Positions 5,481 through 15,596 of a stretch of 64,000 nt of DNA are shown here, piece by piece (position 1 is the first letter of the stretch; each line of letters opens with the position of its first letter). Below the pieces are notes generated by a model. The model ran no database searches and was not told the origin of the DNA. It was given only the letters and a program-made list of their open reading frames with translations. Source of the stretch: Cellvibrio sp. KY-YJ-3 (GTDB lineage: Bacteria; Pseudomonadota; Gammaproteobacteria; Pseudomonadales; Cellvibrionaceae); NCBI RefSeq assembly GCF_008806955.1, contig NZ_CP031727.1, forward strand, positions 1,488,001 to 1,552,000, in the 5' to 3' direction. Both the position numbers and the translations under genes were made by a program.

Positions 5481-6680
5481 CTATTGCGCGCGTGGGTATT
5501 TCTTTGCCCACTTCGCATAATGTTTCAGGATTTTGTTGGGCGATGTGGCATACCAGGCATAACCTTCACGGCGCTCTTTGGATACTTTACCTACCTCGTA
5601 GTGGATTGCGCCATCGCGGTCGCCAAAAATGGGCTTGTTGCTGCCCAACTCGTAAAACCGCGACCACATGGGTGGGGCATTAGGGTCGTCTTTCAGGTCT
5701 GCATCGCCGCGTACCCATACCTTGCCGGTAATTTTGGTAGCGTCATACCAGTCCGCTGCCGCATGAACCGATTCAATAACTTCCGCACTGGGGTTTTCCA
5801 ATCCCATAAAGAACTCCACCATCCATACACTTTCCGCGCTGGTGAGCGAGGCCATTTCATAGGCGCGCGCTTTGGCGGGCATCAGTGTGAGTGGATCGTG
5901 TTGTGCACCCCACACGGTGGCTTTGCCGTTGACTAATACCTGGGTATTCAGCGCGCACTGGATGGCTTTATCCAGACTTTGTTGTGCCAGCTGGCGCTGC
6001 GCCGGGGAGACAAAGGCGTAATCGCCTTCACCCTTGGCAATATCGCGCAACAGGAACATCAGGTTCACCATCAGCGAATCGTTATAGGTGATGTAGTTGT
6101 GGTAATCGCCCACCAGCGGATAGTTTTGTGGCCAGCCGCCATTGGGGTACTGGGCGTCAAGGATCAGCTGCAGGCCGCGCGCAAATGCATCCTGATAGGC
6201 CTTGTCACCGGTAGCGCTATAGGCTTTGGCCAGCAGCGTCATTTGAGTGCTGGTGGCGCCATTATCAAAGGTGGGGATGTAGCCTTTTTCGCTGCCAAAG
6301 GCCATGCCTGGTTGGCGTGCTTTAGTCATGTCGGTGCGTTTGGACCAGCCCCCTGAGGGCGTTTGCAGCGAGAGTATGGCGGCCATTGTCGCCTTGCCCT
6401 CGGCACTTTTAAACCAGGGTGCGGGCTGGTTGGGTTCAAAGCCAAATTCTTTGGTGTAAGCAGGTTGCAGAGGCTTTTTTAAACCGAGGCGTTTTATCTC
6501 GGTGCGGATAAAATCATTGTCCAGTTTGCGCAGCTCGTCGGAGCGCGCCATGTAGGTTTGCCACTGCGCATCTACTGCGGCTTGGGCTGGTGCAGCGCTG
6601 TTTGCCGGTGCGGCGGCGAGCGCGAGGGGTAGCTGGCAAAGGGCGACCAATGCCAGAGCGAGTTTTAGCGATAAATGCAT
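5481..6680 (-). CDS. Pectate lyase, polysaccharide lyase family 10
   Basis: Secreted enzyme (399 aa) that cleaves polygalacturonate by beta-elimination. A signal peptide (MHLSLKLALALVALCQLPLALAA) is followed by a short linker and a single PL10 (alpha/alpha)3-barrel module. Recognisable blocks are QTPSGGWSKRTDM, the acidic patch TFDNGATSTQM, PNGGWPQNYPL, TYNDSLMVNLM, LTSAESVWMVEF and MWSRFYELGSNKPIFGDRDG, whose Arg is the likely catalytic base by family analogy. Unlike modular Cellvibrio Pel10A there is no carbohydrate-binding module. It appears monocistronic. Confidence 0.92.
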   Translation of the reverse strand: MHLSLKLALALVALCQLPLALAAAPANSAAPAQAAVDAQWQTYMARSDELRKLDNDFIRTEIKRLGLKKPLQPAYTKEFGFEPNQPAPWFKSAEGKATMAAILSLQTPSGGWSKRTDMTKARQPGMAFGSEKGYIPTFDNGATSTQMTLLAKAYSATGDKAYQDAFARGLQLILDAQYPNGGWPQNYPLVGDYHNYITYNDSLMVNLMFLLRDIAKGEGDYAFVSPAQRQLAQQSLDKAIQCALNTQVLVNGKATVWGAQHDPLTLMPAKARAYEMASLTSAESVWMVEFFMGLENPSAEVIESVHAAADWYDATKITGKVWVRGDADLKDDPNAPPMWSRFYELGSNKPIFGDRDGAIHYEVGKVSKERREGYAWYATSPNKILKHYAKWAKKYPRAQ

Positions 6681-8925: not shown

Positions 8926-10305
8926 TTATTCGTTCCCGCCGGGGGCGGCGGCCGGTTTGCGTGGGCGGCGACGGCGCGGTTTGCTCGCACTTTTTGGGCT
9001 TTGTTTGGCCAGGTTTTTCACCATCTCTTCGCGTTCTTCGTCGTTGGCGGTTTGGTAATTGGTCCACCATACCCCCAAGCCATCCAGCGCTTCACCAGCG
9101 GCTTCGCGCATTAACAAGAAGTCGTAAGCCGCGCGAAAGCGGGGATGATCCAGTGTGCGCAGGGCGCGCATTCCCAGACGGCTGGGCAGGCGCTGTTGCA
9201 AATCCCAAATTTCACGCATCGGAATCAGAAAGCGTTTGGGGATAGCGGTGCGGGTCAATTGCAGGTTCACCGTATTTTGTGCCGCTTGTGACCATGCCTG
9301 GGTATGCGGCATCTGACTGCTCAATACCTTGAACTGTTGTTGCAGTGCGGGCCAGAGTAACGCGGCATAAATAAACGCGGGAGTGACGGTTTTGCCGCTG
9401 CGGACACGTTTGTCAGTATTAATCATGCACTGTTCAATCAGGTTAGCGCCAACTTCATCGCCAGCCTTGAGTGCCTTGTCGGTACCTGGGAGCAGGTGGA
9501 CCAGCAAATCATAATCGCGCATCAGTGCAAAAGTGGCTGTGGCCGAGCCATTGAGGAATAGTTTGAGTACCTCCTCAAACAGGCGTGCATCGGACACATT
9601 GAGTAATAAGCCGCCCAGTTCGCGGATGGGTTTGGCGGTATTGGGCTCCAACGTAAAACCGAGTTTGGCGGCAAAACGCAGCGCGCGCAGTATGCGCACC
9701 GGGTCTTCTTTGTAGCGGGTGGCCGGGTCACCAATCATGCGCAGGGTGCGGGTTTTGAGGTCGCTCATTCCATCGCAGTAATCGATAACCGAGAAATCTT
9801 TCAAGGTGTAATAGAGGGCGTTGACCGTAAAGTCGCGGCGCATTGCATCGGTTTCAAGTGTACCGTACACATTATCGCGCAGCAGCATGCCATCTTCGCT
9901 GCGGGCGGCATGTTGGGAGCTGTCGTCGTGATGGCCGCGAAAGGTAGTTACCTCGATGACTTCGCGCCCCATACGCACATGCACAATCTGGAAGCGGCGA
10001 CCAACAATGCGCGCGCTGCGGAAAATACGTTTGACTTCATCGGGGGTGGCGTTAGTGGCCACGTCAAAATCTTTCGGGTGACCGCCCAGCAACAAGTCGC
10101 GTACACCGCCGCCCACCAGATAGGCAGCAAAACCGGCATCTTCCAATTGTTTGATAATTTTGATGGCGGCAGAACTAATGTTCTTGCGCGAGATCGTATG
10201 TTGGTTGCGGGGAATTATTGCGGCGCCATCGCTGTTGCGCGAAATGGATGCCTTGGCGGAATCCTTGGTGCCGGAGGTGAAGAGGTTTAGCAAGCGTTTG
10301 AGCAT
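8926..10305 (-). CDS. pcnB: Poly(A) polymerase I
   Basis: RNA 3' polyadenylating enzyme (459 aa) that marks RNAs for decay. The nucleotidyltransferase core shows YLVGGGVRDLLLGGHPKDFDVAT with the catalytic Asp pair, then RRFQIVHV and MRRDFTVNALYY. GDPATRYKEDPVRILRALRFAAKLGF is the class II signature that separates it from CCA-adding enzymes together with its bacterial PAP C-terminal region. The tail is strongly basic (PKSASKPRRRRPRKP), suited to RNA binding. It follows the CrcZ-like RNA gene exactly as in Pseudomonas. Confidence 0.95.
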   Translation of the reverse strand: MLKRLLNLFTSGTKDSAKASISRNSDGAAIIPRNQHTISRKNISSAAIKIIKQLEDAGFAAYLVGGGVRDLLLGGHPKDFDVATNATPDEVKRIFRSARIVGRRFQIVHVRMGREVIEVTTFRGHHDDSSQHAARSEDGMLLRDNVYGTLETDAMRRDFTVNALYYTLKDFSVIDYCDGMSDLKTRTLRMIGDPATRYKEDPVRILRALRFAAKLGFTLEPNTAKPIRELGGLLLNVSDARLFEEVLKLFLNGSATATFALMRDYDLLVHLLPGTDKALKAGDEVGANLIEQCMINTDKRVRSGKTVTPAFIYAALLWPALQQQFKVLSSQMPHTQAWSQAAQNTVNLQLTRTAIPKRFLIPMREIWDLQQRLPSRLGMRALRTLDHPRFRAAYDFLLMREAAGEALDGLGVWWTNYQTANDEEREEMVKNLAKQSPKSASKPRRRRPRKPAAAPGGNE

Positions 10306-10434: not shown

Positions 10435-10473
10435 ACCCAAAAAGCAAAACGGGAAAGCTTTCGCTTTCCCGTT
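10435..10473 (-). terminator. Intrinsic terminator of the CrcZ-like RNA
   Basis: On the minus strand a perfect 11-base stem (AACGGGAAAGC / GCTTTCCCGTT) closes a GAAA tetraloop and is followed by TTTTGCTTTTT-type sequence. It ends transcription 130 bases before pcnB. The position fits the 3' end of a roughly 400-nt RNA started at the sigma-54 promoter. Confidence 0.88.
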
Positions 10474-10836
10474 GGAGGGAGCACCGAGGTGCTAATGGCA
10501 TTCAATGGGGTGCTTCCGTGCCCATATCCAATCTCGCGTGCTATCCCATCCAGTGCCTGGTTTGTATCCGCTTTATTTTAGTGTCTTATTGCTCTTGTTT
10601 TCTAGCGTGGCCAATCTACGTCTAAGTTATTGTTTTCGTTATTATTATGTTATTTCTGTTGTTATTGTTTGTTGTTGTTATGTTCTTTTTTCCATTTCTT
10701 ATTGTTTCTTGTTGTTATTTGTAATGTTCAGTTTTTTATTATCTATTGTTCTTATTTTGCGTTTCTTTCTGTTTTTTATTATTTGTTGTTGTTATTAGAT
10801 TTTCACATTTAATTCTTATTGTTTGTTTTTGTTATG
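10439..10836 (-). ncRNA. crcZ: CrcZ-like Hfq/Crc-titrating small RNA
   Basis: In Pseudomonas, CrcZ is an RNA of about 400 nt made under CbrAB/RpoN control. It sequesters Hfq-Crc and so lifts catabolite repression. Here the minus-strand transcript predicted between a sigma-54 promoter and an intrinsic terminator is about 398 nt. Its first 200 nt are nearly free of structure and contain more than ten AAnAAnAA motifs, for example AATAACAACAACAA near 10798 and AACAACAACAAACAATAAC near 10680. The second half is more mixed and can form AGCACC/GGTGCT before the terminator. The locus cbrB-crcZ-pcnB is the Pseudomonas order. No long protein frame is plausible in it. Homology is inferred from architecture and synteny, not alignment. 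Confidence 0.85.
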
Positions 10837-10846
10837 GCGCTCTAAA

Positions 10847-10862
10847 AGCAGTTGTTGTGCCA
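10847..10862 (-). promoter_or_regulatory. Sigma-54 promoter of the CrcZ-like RNA
   Basis: The minus strand reads TGGCACAACAACTGCT. This matches the RpoN consensus TGGCACrnnnnTTGCw at all but one fixed base, with GG and GC exactly ten bases apart. With C at -12 (10848) the start point falls near 10836, just before the A-rich region. Sigma-54 promoters need an activator with a GAFTGA loop, and CbrB, encoded just upstream, has one. Confidence 0.88.
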
Positions 10863-10936: not shown

Positions 10937-11021
10937 GGTTACATAATCGGTGTGCGATTGTTACCGGATATGGGGTGGGTAACAGTATTTTTGCGGTAAC
11001 ACCCACGTGACTGGGGGTAAC
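10937..11021. promoter_or_regulatory. Putative CbrB upstream activating sequences
   Basis: Five half-sites cluster here: GGTTAC (10937-10942), TGTTAC (10959-10964), GTAACA (10979-10984), GTAACA (10996-11001) and GTAAC (11017-11021). The second and third form TGTTAC-N14-GTAACA, which from memory is the published type of CbrB recognition site in Pseudomonas putida. They sit roughly 100-185 bases upstream of the predicted start, a usual distance for enhancer-binding proteins. Direct binding is inferred. Confidence 0.75.
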
Positions 11022-11081: not shown

Positions 11082-11119
11082 AAAAATCCCCGCGAGCGGT
11101 TTGGCTGGCGGGGATTTTT
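11082..11119 (-). terminator. Terminator of cbrB
   Basis: The arms AAAAATCCCCGC (11082-11093) and GCGGGGATTTTT (11108-11119) are perfect complements of 12 bases around a 14-base loop. They lie 13 bases after the cbrB stop on the minus strand. This separates cbrB transcription from the small-RNA promoter. Confidence 0.88.
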
Positions 11120-11131
11120 TGTCTCTGGCGG

Positions 11132-12541
11132 TTATTTGCCGCTGCTGGCGCTCGCGCCGGCTTTGGTGCGGGGAATGCCAAGGCGCTGGCGGCGCTCCCA
11201 CAGGCACTTGCGGCTCACACCCAGTTTGCGTGCCAGCTCGGTTTCGCTCATGGTGTCCTGATGTTCCAGTACAAAGCGCTGGAAGTAGTCCTCCAGGGAT
11301 AAGTCTTCAGTAGCACTGCTGCCGTTACTGCGGCTAGCCAAACGTGCTGGCTCAAAAATGGAGCTGCCCGTGTTGTCATTCAGGTCTTGGGCGTCCATGT
11401 CGATGGAAAGCAGGTGATCGCCTATCTCAGTACTGTCTTCGCAGAGAATCACGGCGCGCTGCATGGCATTTTCCAGCTCGCGCACGTTGCCCGGCCAGTT
11501 GTAGCTCATGATGGCGTCCATTGCGTCAGACGATAATTTCAGTTGTGGCTTGCCAAACTGCGCACAGTAACGCTGCAGCAGGGATTCGGCGATGCTGATA
11601 ATGTCGCGGCCGCGCTCACGCAGTGGCGGTAATTCCAGTTGCATCACGTTGATCCGGAAGTAGAGGTCTTCGCGGAATTTGCCTTCGCGCGCCAGTTTGC
11701 GCAAGTCGCGGTGTGTTGCTGCTACTAAGCGCACATCTACCTTGCGCGATTCCACCGAGCCCAGTGGGCGCACTTCTCCCTCTTGCAGTACGCGTAACAG
11801 GCGCGCCTGGGCTTCTAATGGTAGTTCGCCAATCTCATCAAGGAACAGGGTGCCGCCATCCGCTGCTGCAACCAGGCCTTCACGGTTGGTCGCAGCACCG
11901 GTAAAGGCGCCTTTTTCATAACCAAAGAGTTCGGATTCAATCAGGGTGTCGGGAATGGCGGCGCAGTTGACTGAGATCATCAGATGATTGTTGCGGTTGC
12001 TCTCTTCGTGCAGCGCGCGGGCAACAAGCTCTTTGCCTGTGCCGGTTTCGCCATGGATCAATACAGTGGCGTTGGTGGGGGCGATTTTATGGATGCGGTT
12101 GTACAGGTCCTGCATCACATCGCTGGTGCCAATCATGCCGGCAATGGTAGTACTTGCAGTTTGGGTGCTGTTGGCGGCCTTATTTGCCGCTTTGGCTTTG
12201 CCGATTACGCGTTTAACGGCATTAACCATCTCGTCGTGGTCGAAGGGTTTGGCGATATAGTCCACTGCGCCCATGCGCATGGAGTCTACTGCTGAGCGCA
12301 AGCTGGCATAGCTGGTCATGATGAGTACGGGAGTATCACCTGCCAATTTGATCAGGTCGGTGCCCGGTGCACCTGGCAAGCGCAGGTCGCTGACTATTAG
12401 ATCGAAATCCTTGAGTTGGAATTTGGACGTGGCCTCTTTGACTGACGGCGCTTCGCTGACCTCGTACTGGTTGCGCTCAAGCAGTTTGCGCAGCGCGGTA
12501 CGGATGATGGTTTCGTCTTCAACAATCAGAATCTTACTCAT
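11132..12541 (-). CDS. cbrB: Two-component response regulator CbrB, sigma-54 activator
   Basis: NtrC-family activator (469 aa). The receiver domain (1-120) has the acceptor Asp in IVSDLRLPG (residue 52). The AAA+ domain follows, with GETGTGKE (Walker A), the sigma-54 contact loop GAFTGA, GGTLFLDEIGELP (Walker B) and PGNVRELENAM. The C-terminal Fis-type helix-turn-helix is SETELARKLGVSRKCLWERRQRLG. In Pseudomonas CbrB senses carbon/nitrogen balance through CbrA and activates crcZ. The adjacent sigma-54 promoter and half-sites make that the likely role here. In Cellvibrio this would bear on polysaccharide use. Confidence 0.95.
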   Translation of the reverse strand: MSKILIVEDETIIRTALRKLLERNQYEVSEAPSVKEATSKFQLKDFDLIVSDLRLPGAPGTDLIKLAGDTPVLIMTSYASLRSAVDSMRMGAVDYIAKPFDHDEMVNAVKRVIGKAKAANKAANSTQTASTTIAGMIGTSDVMQDLYNRIHKIAPTNATVLIHGETGTGKELVARALHEESNRNNHLMISVNCAAIPDTLIESELFGYEKGAFTGAATNREGLVAAADGGTLFLDEIGELPLEAQARLLRVLQEGEVRPLGSVESRKVDVRLVAATHRDLRKLAREGKFREDLYFRINVMQLELPPLRERGRDIISIAESLLQRYCAQFGKPQLKLSSDAMDAIMSYNWPGNVRELENAMQRAVILCEDSTEIGDHLLSIDMDAQDLNDNTGSSIFEPARLASRSNGSSATEDLSLEDYFQRFVLEHQDTMSETELARKLGVSRKCLWERRQRLGIPRTKAGASASSGK

Positions 12542-12626: not shown

Positions 12627-15596
12627 TCAGGCATCCATGAATGAATCCAGATGGCGCGGCAGTGTAATCTCAAAACGGGCGCCGCGATTGTGAACGGTAT
12701 CGGCGGGGCTGATGATGTCCATATGGCCGCTATGGTCTTCAATAATGCTGTAGACCATGGCCAATCCAAGCCCTGTACCTTCACCGGGTTCTTTGGTGGT
12801 GAAGAAGGGTTCGAGAATGCGCTCAATCAGTTCGGGCGGAATACCATGCCCCTCATCGGTAACAAAAACTGTTACCGAATCCTCATCTTCGTTACTTTCA
12901 AGCATAACACGCCCTTGCTCCGGGCTGGCATCCCGTGCGTTAGATAAAAGGTTTATAAAAACCTGAATCATCCGCTGTGCATCGCCGGCAATAATGGCGG
13001 TTTTGGGGATGTCATTGCAAAACAGTACCTGGTTTTTATCCTTTTGCAGCGAGAGCAGGTGGATGGCTTCATTGGCGCAGTCGCGCAGGGAGACGGCTTC
13101 AAATTCGGTCTTGCTGGCGTGACCGGCGTGGGAGAAGCTCACCAGCGATTGCACAATACGGCCGACGCGGTCGGTCTGGCTAAGGATCTGCTCCGCGGTT
13201 TCCAACACTTCCGCAGGGTCGGTGGAATCGTACTTCAAATTTTGCGCGAGGCAGGCGATACCAGTGATTGGGTTGCCAATTTCATGGGCGACACCCGCCG
13301 CGAGACGACCAACCGACGCGAGCCGCTCCGAATGCACTAGCTCTTGCTCCAATAATTGGGTCTCGGTCACATCTTCCAGCAGCATTACCTGGTCGTACAC
13401 GCCCGCCGTAATGGTGCCTTCAATATTGGCTTTGTGCAGGCTGATCCAGTGTGGGCGATTGTCCAGCTCTATCTCGCGGCGATAGAAATGCGGCTCGTTG
13501 CTTTGGCTGAAGTCGATTAATAGGCTGCACCAGGGTTCGGGAATATCCTCCAGATAGGAACCCGTAACATCGCCGCTGGGGATGCCCGTCAATTCCGCCA
13601 TGGCGCGGTTCCACATCAGCACTTCCATGTCGCGCCCGAGCGAGCAGACCGCCATCGGCAATTCTTCCAGGGTTTTGCGGTGATAGAGACGCAAGGTATT
13701 GAGTTCCGCTGCCATACCGGTGAGGTGTTCGCGGTATTCAGAGAGGCGGCTTTCAATCAGGTTGATGTCCACGGTGTTGTGGGTTTCGGCCACTACATGG
13801 GGGATGTACTTGTCCATAATCTCGCTGGCGACGTGAATCCCCATCAGGCTCGACAGGTTGCCCTCGATCTGGTCGCGCAGGCGACGCAGGGCGTAGGGGC
13901 GGCGTTCGTCGATACCCAAACTCAGTTCTTTGAGGGCGATATCCACCTCGCGACTGGCGGTAACTTTGCCTAACGGTTTGGCAAGACGATGTTTGAATTC
14001 GGCGGCGGAGTGTACATCCAGCGCCTGGCGCACCGGGTGGCTCAGTTCATCAGCAGCACAGACATCGGCGCTGTATTGTTCGTCTTCCGTCTGGGTGGTT
14101 GCCAGGGATATCAATACAAAACAGAGCGTATTCAAACTGATCGAAATCAGGGTGACTTGGCTCCAGTATTCAATCCCTACCGGAATCGTCCAGTCATTAA
14201 AAGGAAGCGGGACAAACTCCAAGCCGGTCAACATGGGTAACAGCAGGCCTATAGCCCACACGCTGGTGCCGACAGCCAAACCGGCGATCACCCCGCGTCG
14301 GTTCCCCTTGCTCCAAAATACAATCGCAAAGGTGGCGGGCAGGAATTGCAAGGTTTCGATAAACGCAGTCATGGCTAAATGGGCGAGGCTGAAGCGGTTA
14401 TCCAGAATCCAGTACAGCAGGTAAGCCCCGAGGAATATCGTGGCGATCAAAATCCGCCGCAGCCAGATGAGCTGGCTGTAGAGGTCGGTACGGGTGCGTA
14501 ATTTCAGGCTTGGCAGCAACCAGTGGTTCATCACCATGGTTGAGAGCGCCAGAGAAATCACCACCATCGCCCCGGTTGCCGCCGACAAGCCACCAATAAA
14601 GGCGAGCAAGGTCAGCCCCGGCGAGTTGAACAAAATAGGAATACCCAGGGTGTAGTACTGCGGCGGTAATGGTACCGAGAGTTCAGTGCCTGCCCAGAGA
14701 ATCGGGAAGATGGGTAGTGCCATCAGCAGCAGGAATAAGGAGAAGGCCCAGGTCACGGTATGCGAATTGCGCATCAGCGGGTTTTCTGCCAATCCCAAAT
14801 GGAAGATATGGGGCATGGTAACGGCGGTGGCAACAAAGACCAGCAGCAAGGTGTGGGCCGAGTCGGTATGGATGGGGCTGTGCAGCAGTGCGAGATTTTC
14901 CGGGTGATCCAACAGCCATTGATCCAATCCTTCCAATCCGTCAAATACACCAAATACGGCCACCAGGCCGATGGCGCAGAGGGCACACACTTTGATCAGT
15001 GACTCAAAGGCCATGGCGGTAATCAGGCCGCGGTGTTGGTCGCGATTGGCGCCGAAAGAAATGGTAAAAAAGGCCAAAATGGCGCAGTAGCACAGCGCCA
15101 TTAAATCCTTGAAGGTTAGACCCGTGCCCTGCAGCGGCAGCGCGGGGTTACCGCTTACAGTGAGGATATGCATGGTGTCGGCAATCGCCTGAATTTGCAG
15201 TGCCATCAGCGGCAAAATACCGCACAGCATACAAAGGGTGGTTAGTGCCCCAACGCTGTGGCTGTGGTAGCGAAATACCAGCAGGTCGGCCAGCGAATGC
15301 ACTTGATGGCGGCGGGCCAGTTCTGCCAAGGGCGCCAGCGCCACGGGGGCAAACAAAAATAATGCACCGGTGCCGATGTAATAAGCCAATGCACCGTAAC
15401 CGTATTGAAAGGCGAGATCGATTACCCCGTAAAACGCCCAGGCGCTGGCAAAAATACCCAGCGACAAAATATAAGTGATGGGGTGGGAGGTGACTGCTTC
15501 GGGAATCCAACCGCGCTCGGTGATATAGGCAATGCCAAATAGCAACAATAGATAGCAGAGACCGATTAGCGCCACTTGGCTGAGATCAAATGTCAT
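12627..15596 (-). CDS. cbrA: Transporter-fused sensor histidine kinase CbrA
   Basis: Membrane sensor kinase of 989 residues, near the usual CbrA length. The N-terminal half (about 1-500) is a sodium/solute-symporter (SSSF) domain with some 13 hydrophobic segments. A cytoplasmic linker and a PAS region (LEELPMAVCSLGRDMEVLMWNRAMAELTG begins it) follow. The kinase core has the phospho-acceptor in GVAHEIGNP (about residue 771), the N-box INLLSNARDA, and the G-boxes VTDEGHGIP and GEGTGLGLAM. It signals to CbrB. The gap to cbrB is 85 bases. The transported or sensed ligand is unknown. Confidence 0.95.
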   Translation of the reverse strand: MTFDLSQVALIGLCYLLLLFGIAYITERGWIPEAVTSHPITYILSLGIFASAWAFYGVIDLAFQYGYGALAYYIGTGALFLFAPVALAPLAELARRHQVHSLADLLVFRYHSHSVGALTTLCMLCGILPLMALQIQAIADTMHILTVSGNPALPLQGTGLTFKDLMALCYCAILAFFTISFGANRDQHRGLITAMAFESLIKVCALCAIGLVAVFGVFDGLEGLDQWLLDHPENLALLHSPIHTDSAHTLLLVFVATAVTMPHIFHLGLAENPLMRNSHTVTWAFSLFLLLMALPIFPILWAGTELSVPLPPQYYTLGIPILFNSPGLTLLAFIGGLSAATGAMVVISLALSTMVMNHWLLPSLKLRTRTDLYSQLIWLRRILIATIFLGAYLLYWILDNRFSLAHLAMTAFIETLQFLPATFAIVFWSKGNRRGVIAGLAVGTSVWAIGLLLPMLTGLEFVPLPFNDWTIPVGIEYWSQVTLISISLNTLCFVLISLATTQTEDEQYSADVCAADELSHPVRQALDVHSAAEFKHRLAKPLGKVTASREVDIALKELSLGIDERRPYALRRLRDQIEGNLSSLMGIHVASEIMDKYIPHVVAETHNTVDINLIESRLSEYREHLTGMAAELNTLRLYHRKTLEELPMAVCSLGRDMEVLMWNRAMAELTGIPSGDVTGSYLEDIPEPWCSLLIDFSQSNEPHFYRREIELDNRPHWISLHKANIEGTITAGVYDQVMLLEDVTETQLLEQELVHSERLASVGRLAAGVAHEIGNPITGIACLAQNLKYDSTDPAEVLETAEQILSQTDRVGRIVQSLVSFSHAGHASKTEFEAVSLRDCANEAIHLLSLQKDKNQVLFCNDIPKTAIIAGDAQRMIQVFINLLSNARDASPEQGRVMLESNEDEDSVTVFVTDEGHGIPPELIERILEPFFTTKEPGEGTGLGLAMVYSIIEDHSGHMDIISPADTVHNRGARFEITLPRHLDSFMDA

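Follow-up and report, generated by a model that had tools for sequence, protein, structure and literature searches.

The 64,000-nt stretch of Cellvibrio sp. KY-YJ-3 DNA analysed here (the window) holds, between cbrB and pcnB, what is very probably (roughly 0.88) the Cellvibrio counterpart of crcZ, a gene for a 398-nt RNA that would be driven by CbrB and sigma-54 and would titrate Hfq/Crc. The features that speak for this reading can be traced in the DNA itself, namely the position of the gene, its promoter, the CbrB-type sites, a motif array above chance, a terminator, the cognate proteins and the recurrence of the arrangement across the order.

The decoy RNA predicted here, of the CrcZ type and about 398 nt long (10439..10836, minus strand), was delimited from a sigma-54 promoter, a terminator and the extent of the cbrB–pcnB gap. 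It is preceded by cbrB (11132..12541, minus strand), which encodes a response regulator with a sigma-54 interaction domain (65–68% to Pseudomonas CbrB), and followed by pcnB (8926..10305, minus strand), encoding a poly(A) polymerase also recognized by TIGR01942. The three genes share a common direction with the RNA lying in the gap between the other two, as in the CrcZ type, and the strand, coordinates and flanking genes given by an earlier, sequence-only reading of this DNA were correct. The RNA ends at an intrinsic terminator located by terminator scan and folding (10448..10473, minus strand), with an 11-bp stem, a GAAA loop and a T-rich tail (AACGGGAAAGC-GAAA-GCTTTCCCGTT and then TTGCTTTTT, 10473–10448). 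The terminal 62 nt fold with −25.9 kcal/mol (z −4.5), bearing out the strong terminator that had been claimed, and the stem is largely kept across an alignment of seven sequences. A predicted size of about 400 nt with an intrinsic terminator at the end is likewise characteristic of the CrcZ type. Directly past the cbrB stop, a hairpin (ATCCCCGC / GCGGGGAT) followed by a T-run (11082..11115, minus strand) probably ends the cbrB transcript and separates cbrB from the RNA gene; this hairpin is absent from the output of the terminator scan, in which the loop limit was 8 nt. The common direction of all the genes, and the fact that the stretch fills the gap between them, would also suit a part of an mRNA, either the pcnB 5′ leader or a product derived from the 3′ UTR of cbrB. 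However, the hairpin and T-run behind cbrB, the RNA's own sigma-54 promoter with CbrB-type sites and a terminator that ends ahead of pcnB make this explanation very improbable. A 97-aa open reading frame on the opposite strand (10505–10798, plus), antisense to the array, was discarded as a gene, being the complement of the A-rich array.

The sigma-54 (−24/−12) promoter, TGGCACAACAACTGCT, was located by motif match at 10847..10862 (minus strand), and like sites with like spacing are seen in many families. Read from 10862 to 10847 it fits TGGCAYN5YTGCW exactly, its GC being placed 12–13 nt ahead of 10836. In Azotobacter, crcZ is described as starting 13 bp past a predicted sigma-54 promoter, and a sigma-70 promoter may also serve (accessible passages of PMC6292655); in the window, the scan listed nothing resembling a sigma-70 site immediately before 10836. 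The first AAnAAnAA motif is found 29 nt from the first base of the sigma-54 site, as in the Pseudomonas loci. Throughout the genome 25 sites of the form TGGCAYN5CTGCW could be counted, and a single one, that of the cbrB–pcnB locus, has an array behind it. Three subsites of the CbrB type lie farther upstream on the minus strand, F1 (TGTTAC, 10979..10984, −122 from the TGG of the promoter), R1 (GTAACA, 10959..10964, −102) and an R2-like GTAACC with one mismatch to GTAACA (10937..10942, −80). At a P. putida locus (L069) the elements TGTTAC, GTAACA and GTAACG are placed at −124, −104 and −82, and by their letters and spacing the subsites of the window correspond to F1, R1 and R2 of P. putida, the last of which is written GTAACg for crcZ in the passages describing the three CbrB subsites (PMC6296734). 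An additional TGTTAC (10996..11001, minus strand, −139) is also present at −139/−140 in the relatives L007, L011, L018, L032, L036 and L055 among the loci printed. A sigma-54 promoter with upstream CbrB subsites, identified here as sequence matches, is a further hallmark of the CrcZ type. Both elements were missing from the sequence-only reading, and they constitute the strongest evidence for an RNA gene at this place.

The 5′ half of the RNA is occupied by the array (10627..10833, minus strand), defined by motif count and folding. It comprises 13 non-overlapping AAnAAnAA motifs (24 when overlaps are allowed), all of them at nt 4–210 of the 398-nt RNA, in agreement with the more than ten that had been reported for its first half. 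Folding of two pieces that overlap within the array (147 and 141 nt) gave 0 kcal/mol, and they are predicted to be unstructured. It is also the densest motif spot of the 64-kb window: its 24 overlapping motifs in 220 nt compare with a maximum of 3 in the stretches sampled on the plus strand, and on the minus strand it is overlapped by each of the eight densest stretches listed. Adenine makes up 64% (141/220) of the first 220 nt, a composition that by itself yields some AAnAAnAA, as it would in a neutral A-rich intergenic spacer whose motif count reflected nothing else; moreover, perfect 6/6 ARN footprints in the array of the window do not exceed the shuffles (1 vs 0.6). Such a spacer is nevertheless hardly credible. 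Dinucleotide shuffles of these 220 nt contained on average 5.8 non-overlapping and 10.4 overlapping motifs and reached the observed 13 in none of 1000 cases, the stricter motif AAYAAYAA occurs 9 times as opposed to 1.6 in shuffles, and eight non-overlapping 18-nt footprints of the array have ARN in 5/6 triplets or more (3.3 in shuffles, observed number reached in 0/500). The adenines of the motifs are furthermore better conserved than the other adenines of the array among 17 Cellvibrio-type sequences (0.887 vs 0.747, p 8e-5, the positions not being independent), and the array is phased with the sigma-54 promoter in many families, with no instance antisense or in shuffles. Several A-rich AAnAAnAA motifs above chance, as in CrcZ, are thus present in the RNA.

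The 3′ half is of a different nature. The terminal 142 nt, terminator included, are predicted to be structured (z −3.9), and a GCGG...ACTAGGCAC-like stretch at 10572–10553 (minus strand) recurs in the alignment of Cellvibrio, Gilvimarinus and Marinimicrobium. Both features would suit an Hfq decoy that also, or even mainly, acts as a base-pairing small RNA through this half. Yet the 3′ half differs among genera everywhere but in that stretch and in the terminator, and what recurs from family to family is the motif array phased with the promoter, so that we regard a base-pairing role as unlikely.

The proteins with which a CrcZ-type RNA would work are all encoded in the genome (4,489,528 bp, one contig), namely CbrA, CbrB, sigma-54, Hfq and Crc. 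The sensor kinase gene cbrA (12627..15596, minus strand) specifies a protein with about 49% to the four Pseudomonas CbrA printed over nearly the whole length; its Pfam matches comprise kinase and PAS domains, with no transporter domain among them. A CbrA-like match was obtained for 80/80 loci of named genera. Hfq is present as a single copy that is near-identical to P. aeruginosa Hfq across residues 1–73, which places it in the Hfq family. The crc gene that the sequence-only reading had proposed to look for elsewhere in the genome was found, its product having P. aeruginosa Crc (4jg3) as best PDB match with an E value of 2.7e-75. Compared with the genome's own XthA at seven positions, which we take to be the nuclease residues of exonuclease III, Crc differs at six and keeps the histidine: E, D, D and N of XthA are replaced by D, N, S and D, and the His of the SDH motif is retained. 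The protein is thus closest to P. aeruginosa Crc and has lost exonuclease III catalytic residues, as expected of Crc. Among 30 loci the residue comparison covered the 15 that passed the ORF filter, the Crc of the window genome among them; all 15 carry substitutions at five positions and preserve the His, and 4/15 retain the sixth position.

The body of its sequence places the RNA outside RF01675 as that family is modelled. The Rfam CrcZ model (RF01675) gave no match at the locus with E up to 10, nor in the window at the gathering score (95 bits), and a search of the Cellvibrio genome gave 0, as did 14 control genomes in the same search. In a positive control at the gathering score, 5/5 Pseudomonas loci and 0/10 other loci matched. 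The covariance-model check suggested by the sequence-only reading therefore failed, and its claim of a CrcZ homologue stands as regards synteny, the CbrB/sigma-54-type promoter, motif logic, the terminator and a genome that encodes Hfq and Crc, but not as regards the Rfam model. Elsewhere in the window a ribosomal S15 leader (RF00114, 61821–61942, plus) scored above its gathering score.

Its locus, promoter and control sites, together with its motif logic, size and terminator, nonetheless mark the gene as the counterpart of crcZ. Like CrcZ of Pseudomonas, the Cellvibrio RNA is located between cbrB and pcnB, measures about 400 nt, has a terminator at its end, is preceded by CbrB subsites and a sigma-54 promoter with nearly equal spacing, and begins its motifs about 29–30 nt past the start of the −24 element. 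In contrast, its body is missed by the Rfam model, and its motifs are packed in one continuous A-rich 5′ half. A simple reading of this pattern is that the RNA body, mostly a string of short motifs, diverges fast, the control region and the motif phasing being kept. The array is also larger. With motifs counted over 420 nt from about the RNA start, the Pseudomonas loci (n=42) have a median of 6 (range 6–7), and for 18-nt footprints in which 5/6 triplets or more are ARN their median is 4. The window has 13 motifs and eight such footprints. Nine Cellvibrio loci (L001–L009) have 12–13 motifs and a median of 8 footprints, so that Cellvibrio carries about twice as many motifs per array as Pseudomonas; the other 7 Cellvibrio loci have 6–15 motifs, and elsewhere the counts are 14–15 in Gilvimarinus, 12–18 in Aestuariicella and 7–14 in Microbulbifer. 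Counted in this way, the larger array supports the idea that each RNA molecule would offer more Hfq sites; it speaks for the number of sites and not for the tighter or more cooperative Hfq binding that the sequence-only reading suggested. The expanded array announced by the sequence-only reading was therefore confirmed, but not the figure of about five motifs that it gave for Pseudomonas CrcZ, in which six A-rich stretches are described (accessible passages of PMC4063720).

Other RNAs invite comparison. The genes for CrcY and CrcX are located elsewhere than between cbrB and pcnB. In Pseudomonas and Azotobacter these RNAs are described as CbrB-controlled Crc/Hfq decoys (passages of PMC6296734 and PMC4063720), and in the Cellvibrio genome no second array was seen behind the other TGGCAYN5CTGCW sites, the one promoter form scanned. 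The sRNA99 of Acinetobacter baumannii resembles the present RNA in being Hfq-associated and in having three potential A-rich AAN motifs, and its authors liken it to CrcZ (PMC12802169). The passages dealing with sRNA99 give neither a genomic position nor a link to cbrB–pcnB (PMC12802169).

The sequence-only reading had treated the RNA as a matter of Cellvibrio. It is indeed present there, but this view proved too narrow. The region past cbrB was surveyed in 152 genomes (the window's own included, 34 from its family) of the GTDB order, which we take to be Pseudomonadales, and in a second set of 80 loci from named genera; in the NCBI taxonomy, Cellvibrio and Microbulbifer belong to the order Cellvibrionales. 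The strict module required a sigma-54 site matching with no more than one mismatch and, 26–33 nt from the first base of that site, the start of an AAnAAnAA; a locus was considered testable when pcnB came next and the gap was at least 100 nt (26/152 loci of the order survey and 5/80 of the named genera are untestable). In the order survey the module was found in sense orientation in 88/126 testable loci, with 0 antisense and 0/2520 in shuffles; 28/36 families tested have at least one pass, and 8/36 have none. The 38/126 failures have their first motif too far away or lack a good sigma-54 site. Among the named genera, 69/75 testable loci contain the module in sense and 0 in antisense, and the 6 misses (1 Marinimicrobium, 5 Microbulbifer) have both site and array, with the first motif 41–46 nt off. 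The genera in which it was found include Cellvibrio, Gilvimarinus, Marinimicrobium, Microbulbifer, Teredinibacter and others. The CbrB subsites F1 and R2 (at most 1 mismatch) occur jointly at the expected offsets in 78/121 loci against 0/363 shifted controls. This pair is seen in 17/36 families and all three subsites in 12/36, which indicates that uniformity is lower in the control region than in the promoter. A CbrB-like match (E <=1e-110) was also obtained in 18 genomes that belong to the class but lie outside the order; the approximately 0.7–1.5 kb read downstream showed no pcnB and no more than 2 motifs (19 loci, one of them in-order).

Several loci of the survey depart from the common arrangement. 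In L169 (family f38) two tandem CrcZ-like units can be seen by eye between cbrB and pcnB, at about 150–350 and 610–860 of the gap. Each comprises several motifs, ends in a structure like a hairpin and has a sigma-54-like site, that of the first unit being imperfect. In L226 and L231 (family f42) cbrB and pcnB are 55 bp apart and the array is absent; a Crc-like protein is found at 64% identity. L255 and L256 (family f26), where pcnB comes after a more distant cbrB-like gene (47–48%), show a weak sigma-54-like site and a cluster of A-rich motifs and could relate to the CrcZ-like RNAs of Acinetobacter.

Arrays are also found where Crc is missing. In family f43 the best Crc match has 26–28% identity in 5/5 sampled genomes, and these matches have the exonuclease III motifs LQE, GDFN and SDH intact in 5/5. 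The corresponding loci (L234, L242, L244, L246 and L248) nevertheless contain 3–5 sense motifs downstream of CbrB-type sites, the shuffles having a mean of 0.4–1.2 and reaching the observed number in 0–3 of 500; no sigma-54 site was recognized at these 5 arrays. In family f28, 4/5 genomes have only a 25–28% Crc match (judged by identity alone, the residues unread), and the three of these Crc-poor genomes in which pcnB comes next (L174, L175 and L179) have 7–9 motifs, a number reached in 0/500 shuffles. The retention of arrays in f43 and f28 without Crc points to Hfq as the basic ligand, and Hfq is also the RNA-binding partner in the accessible part of the published work (PMC4063720). One may then ask whether the array titrates Hfq alone, with no need of Crc as a partner, an explanation for which both observations speak. 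As the window genome and its close relatives keep a Crc with a degenerate nuclease site, suggesting that Crc still matters there, we consider it rather doubtful. For the order as a whole we lean, if only slightly, towards an ancestral Hfq-sponging RNA driven by CbrB and sigma-54, the motif number of which (about 2 to 18) would have been tuned by lineage, and for which Crc would be optional and lost in some lineages.

Returning to the Cellvibrio RNA as a CrcZ counterpart, we infer the following course for its transcription, the binding of CbrB and of Hfq/Crc, the titration and the regulated genes. On poor carbon sources CbrA would activate CbrB, and phospho-CbrB, bound to the TGTTAC/GTAACA sites, would stimulate the sigma-54 RNA polymerase to produce the 398-nt non-coding RNA. 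Its unstructured 5′ half would display about a dozen AAnAAnAA motifs as ARN-type ligands for the distal face of Hfq, several Hfq hexamers, probably together with Crc, could sit on one RNA molecule, and the titration of Hfq would free catabolic mRNAs from Hfq/Crc repression. These mRNAs may include those of the polysaccharide-use genes proposed by the sequence-only reading. A crude search for such mRNAs gave 157 occurrences of AACAAYAA-N1-12-ATG on both strands of the genome against 79 for the reversed control, with about 3 plausible gene starts among 30 places inspected, and brought out no convincing target. Within the window a motif lies near 1/52 gene starts from crude gene calls (57439, IF-2-like by eye). 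A pectic acid lyase (PF09492) is encoded near the locus (5481–6680, minus), in keeping with a polysaccharide degrader.

The wide distribution of the module is the most interesting part of these results. A 2018 study describes CbrAB as exclusive to Pseudomonadaceae (in the passages accessible, PMC6296734), and a 2022 review presents the conserved cbrA-cbrB-crcZ synteny as unique to that family (likewise in part, PMC8871633). The open-licence literature yielded no paper on CrcZ with Cellvibrio, Marinobacter, Oceanospirillales or Microbulbifer and none on CbrB with Cellvibrio; for CbrB with Marinobacter a single metatranscriptome paper was listed. No report of CrcZ outside Pseudomonas appears among the matches listed in that literature, where the Acinetobacter papers, in the passages matched, have CrcZ in their reference lists only, save for the sRNA99 comparison. 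Against the published restriction to Pseudomonadaceae, the module is seen here in 28/36 families. Carbon control of the CrcZ type would then be general to the GTDB order, polysaccharide degraders included, and the naturally differing motif numbers, in lineages with or without Crc, would provide a series from which the number of sites needed by a sponge RNA, and the contribution of Crc, may be judged.
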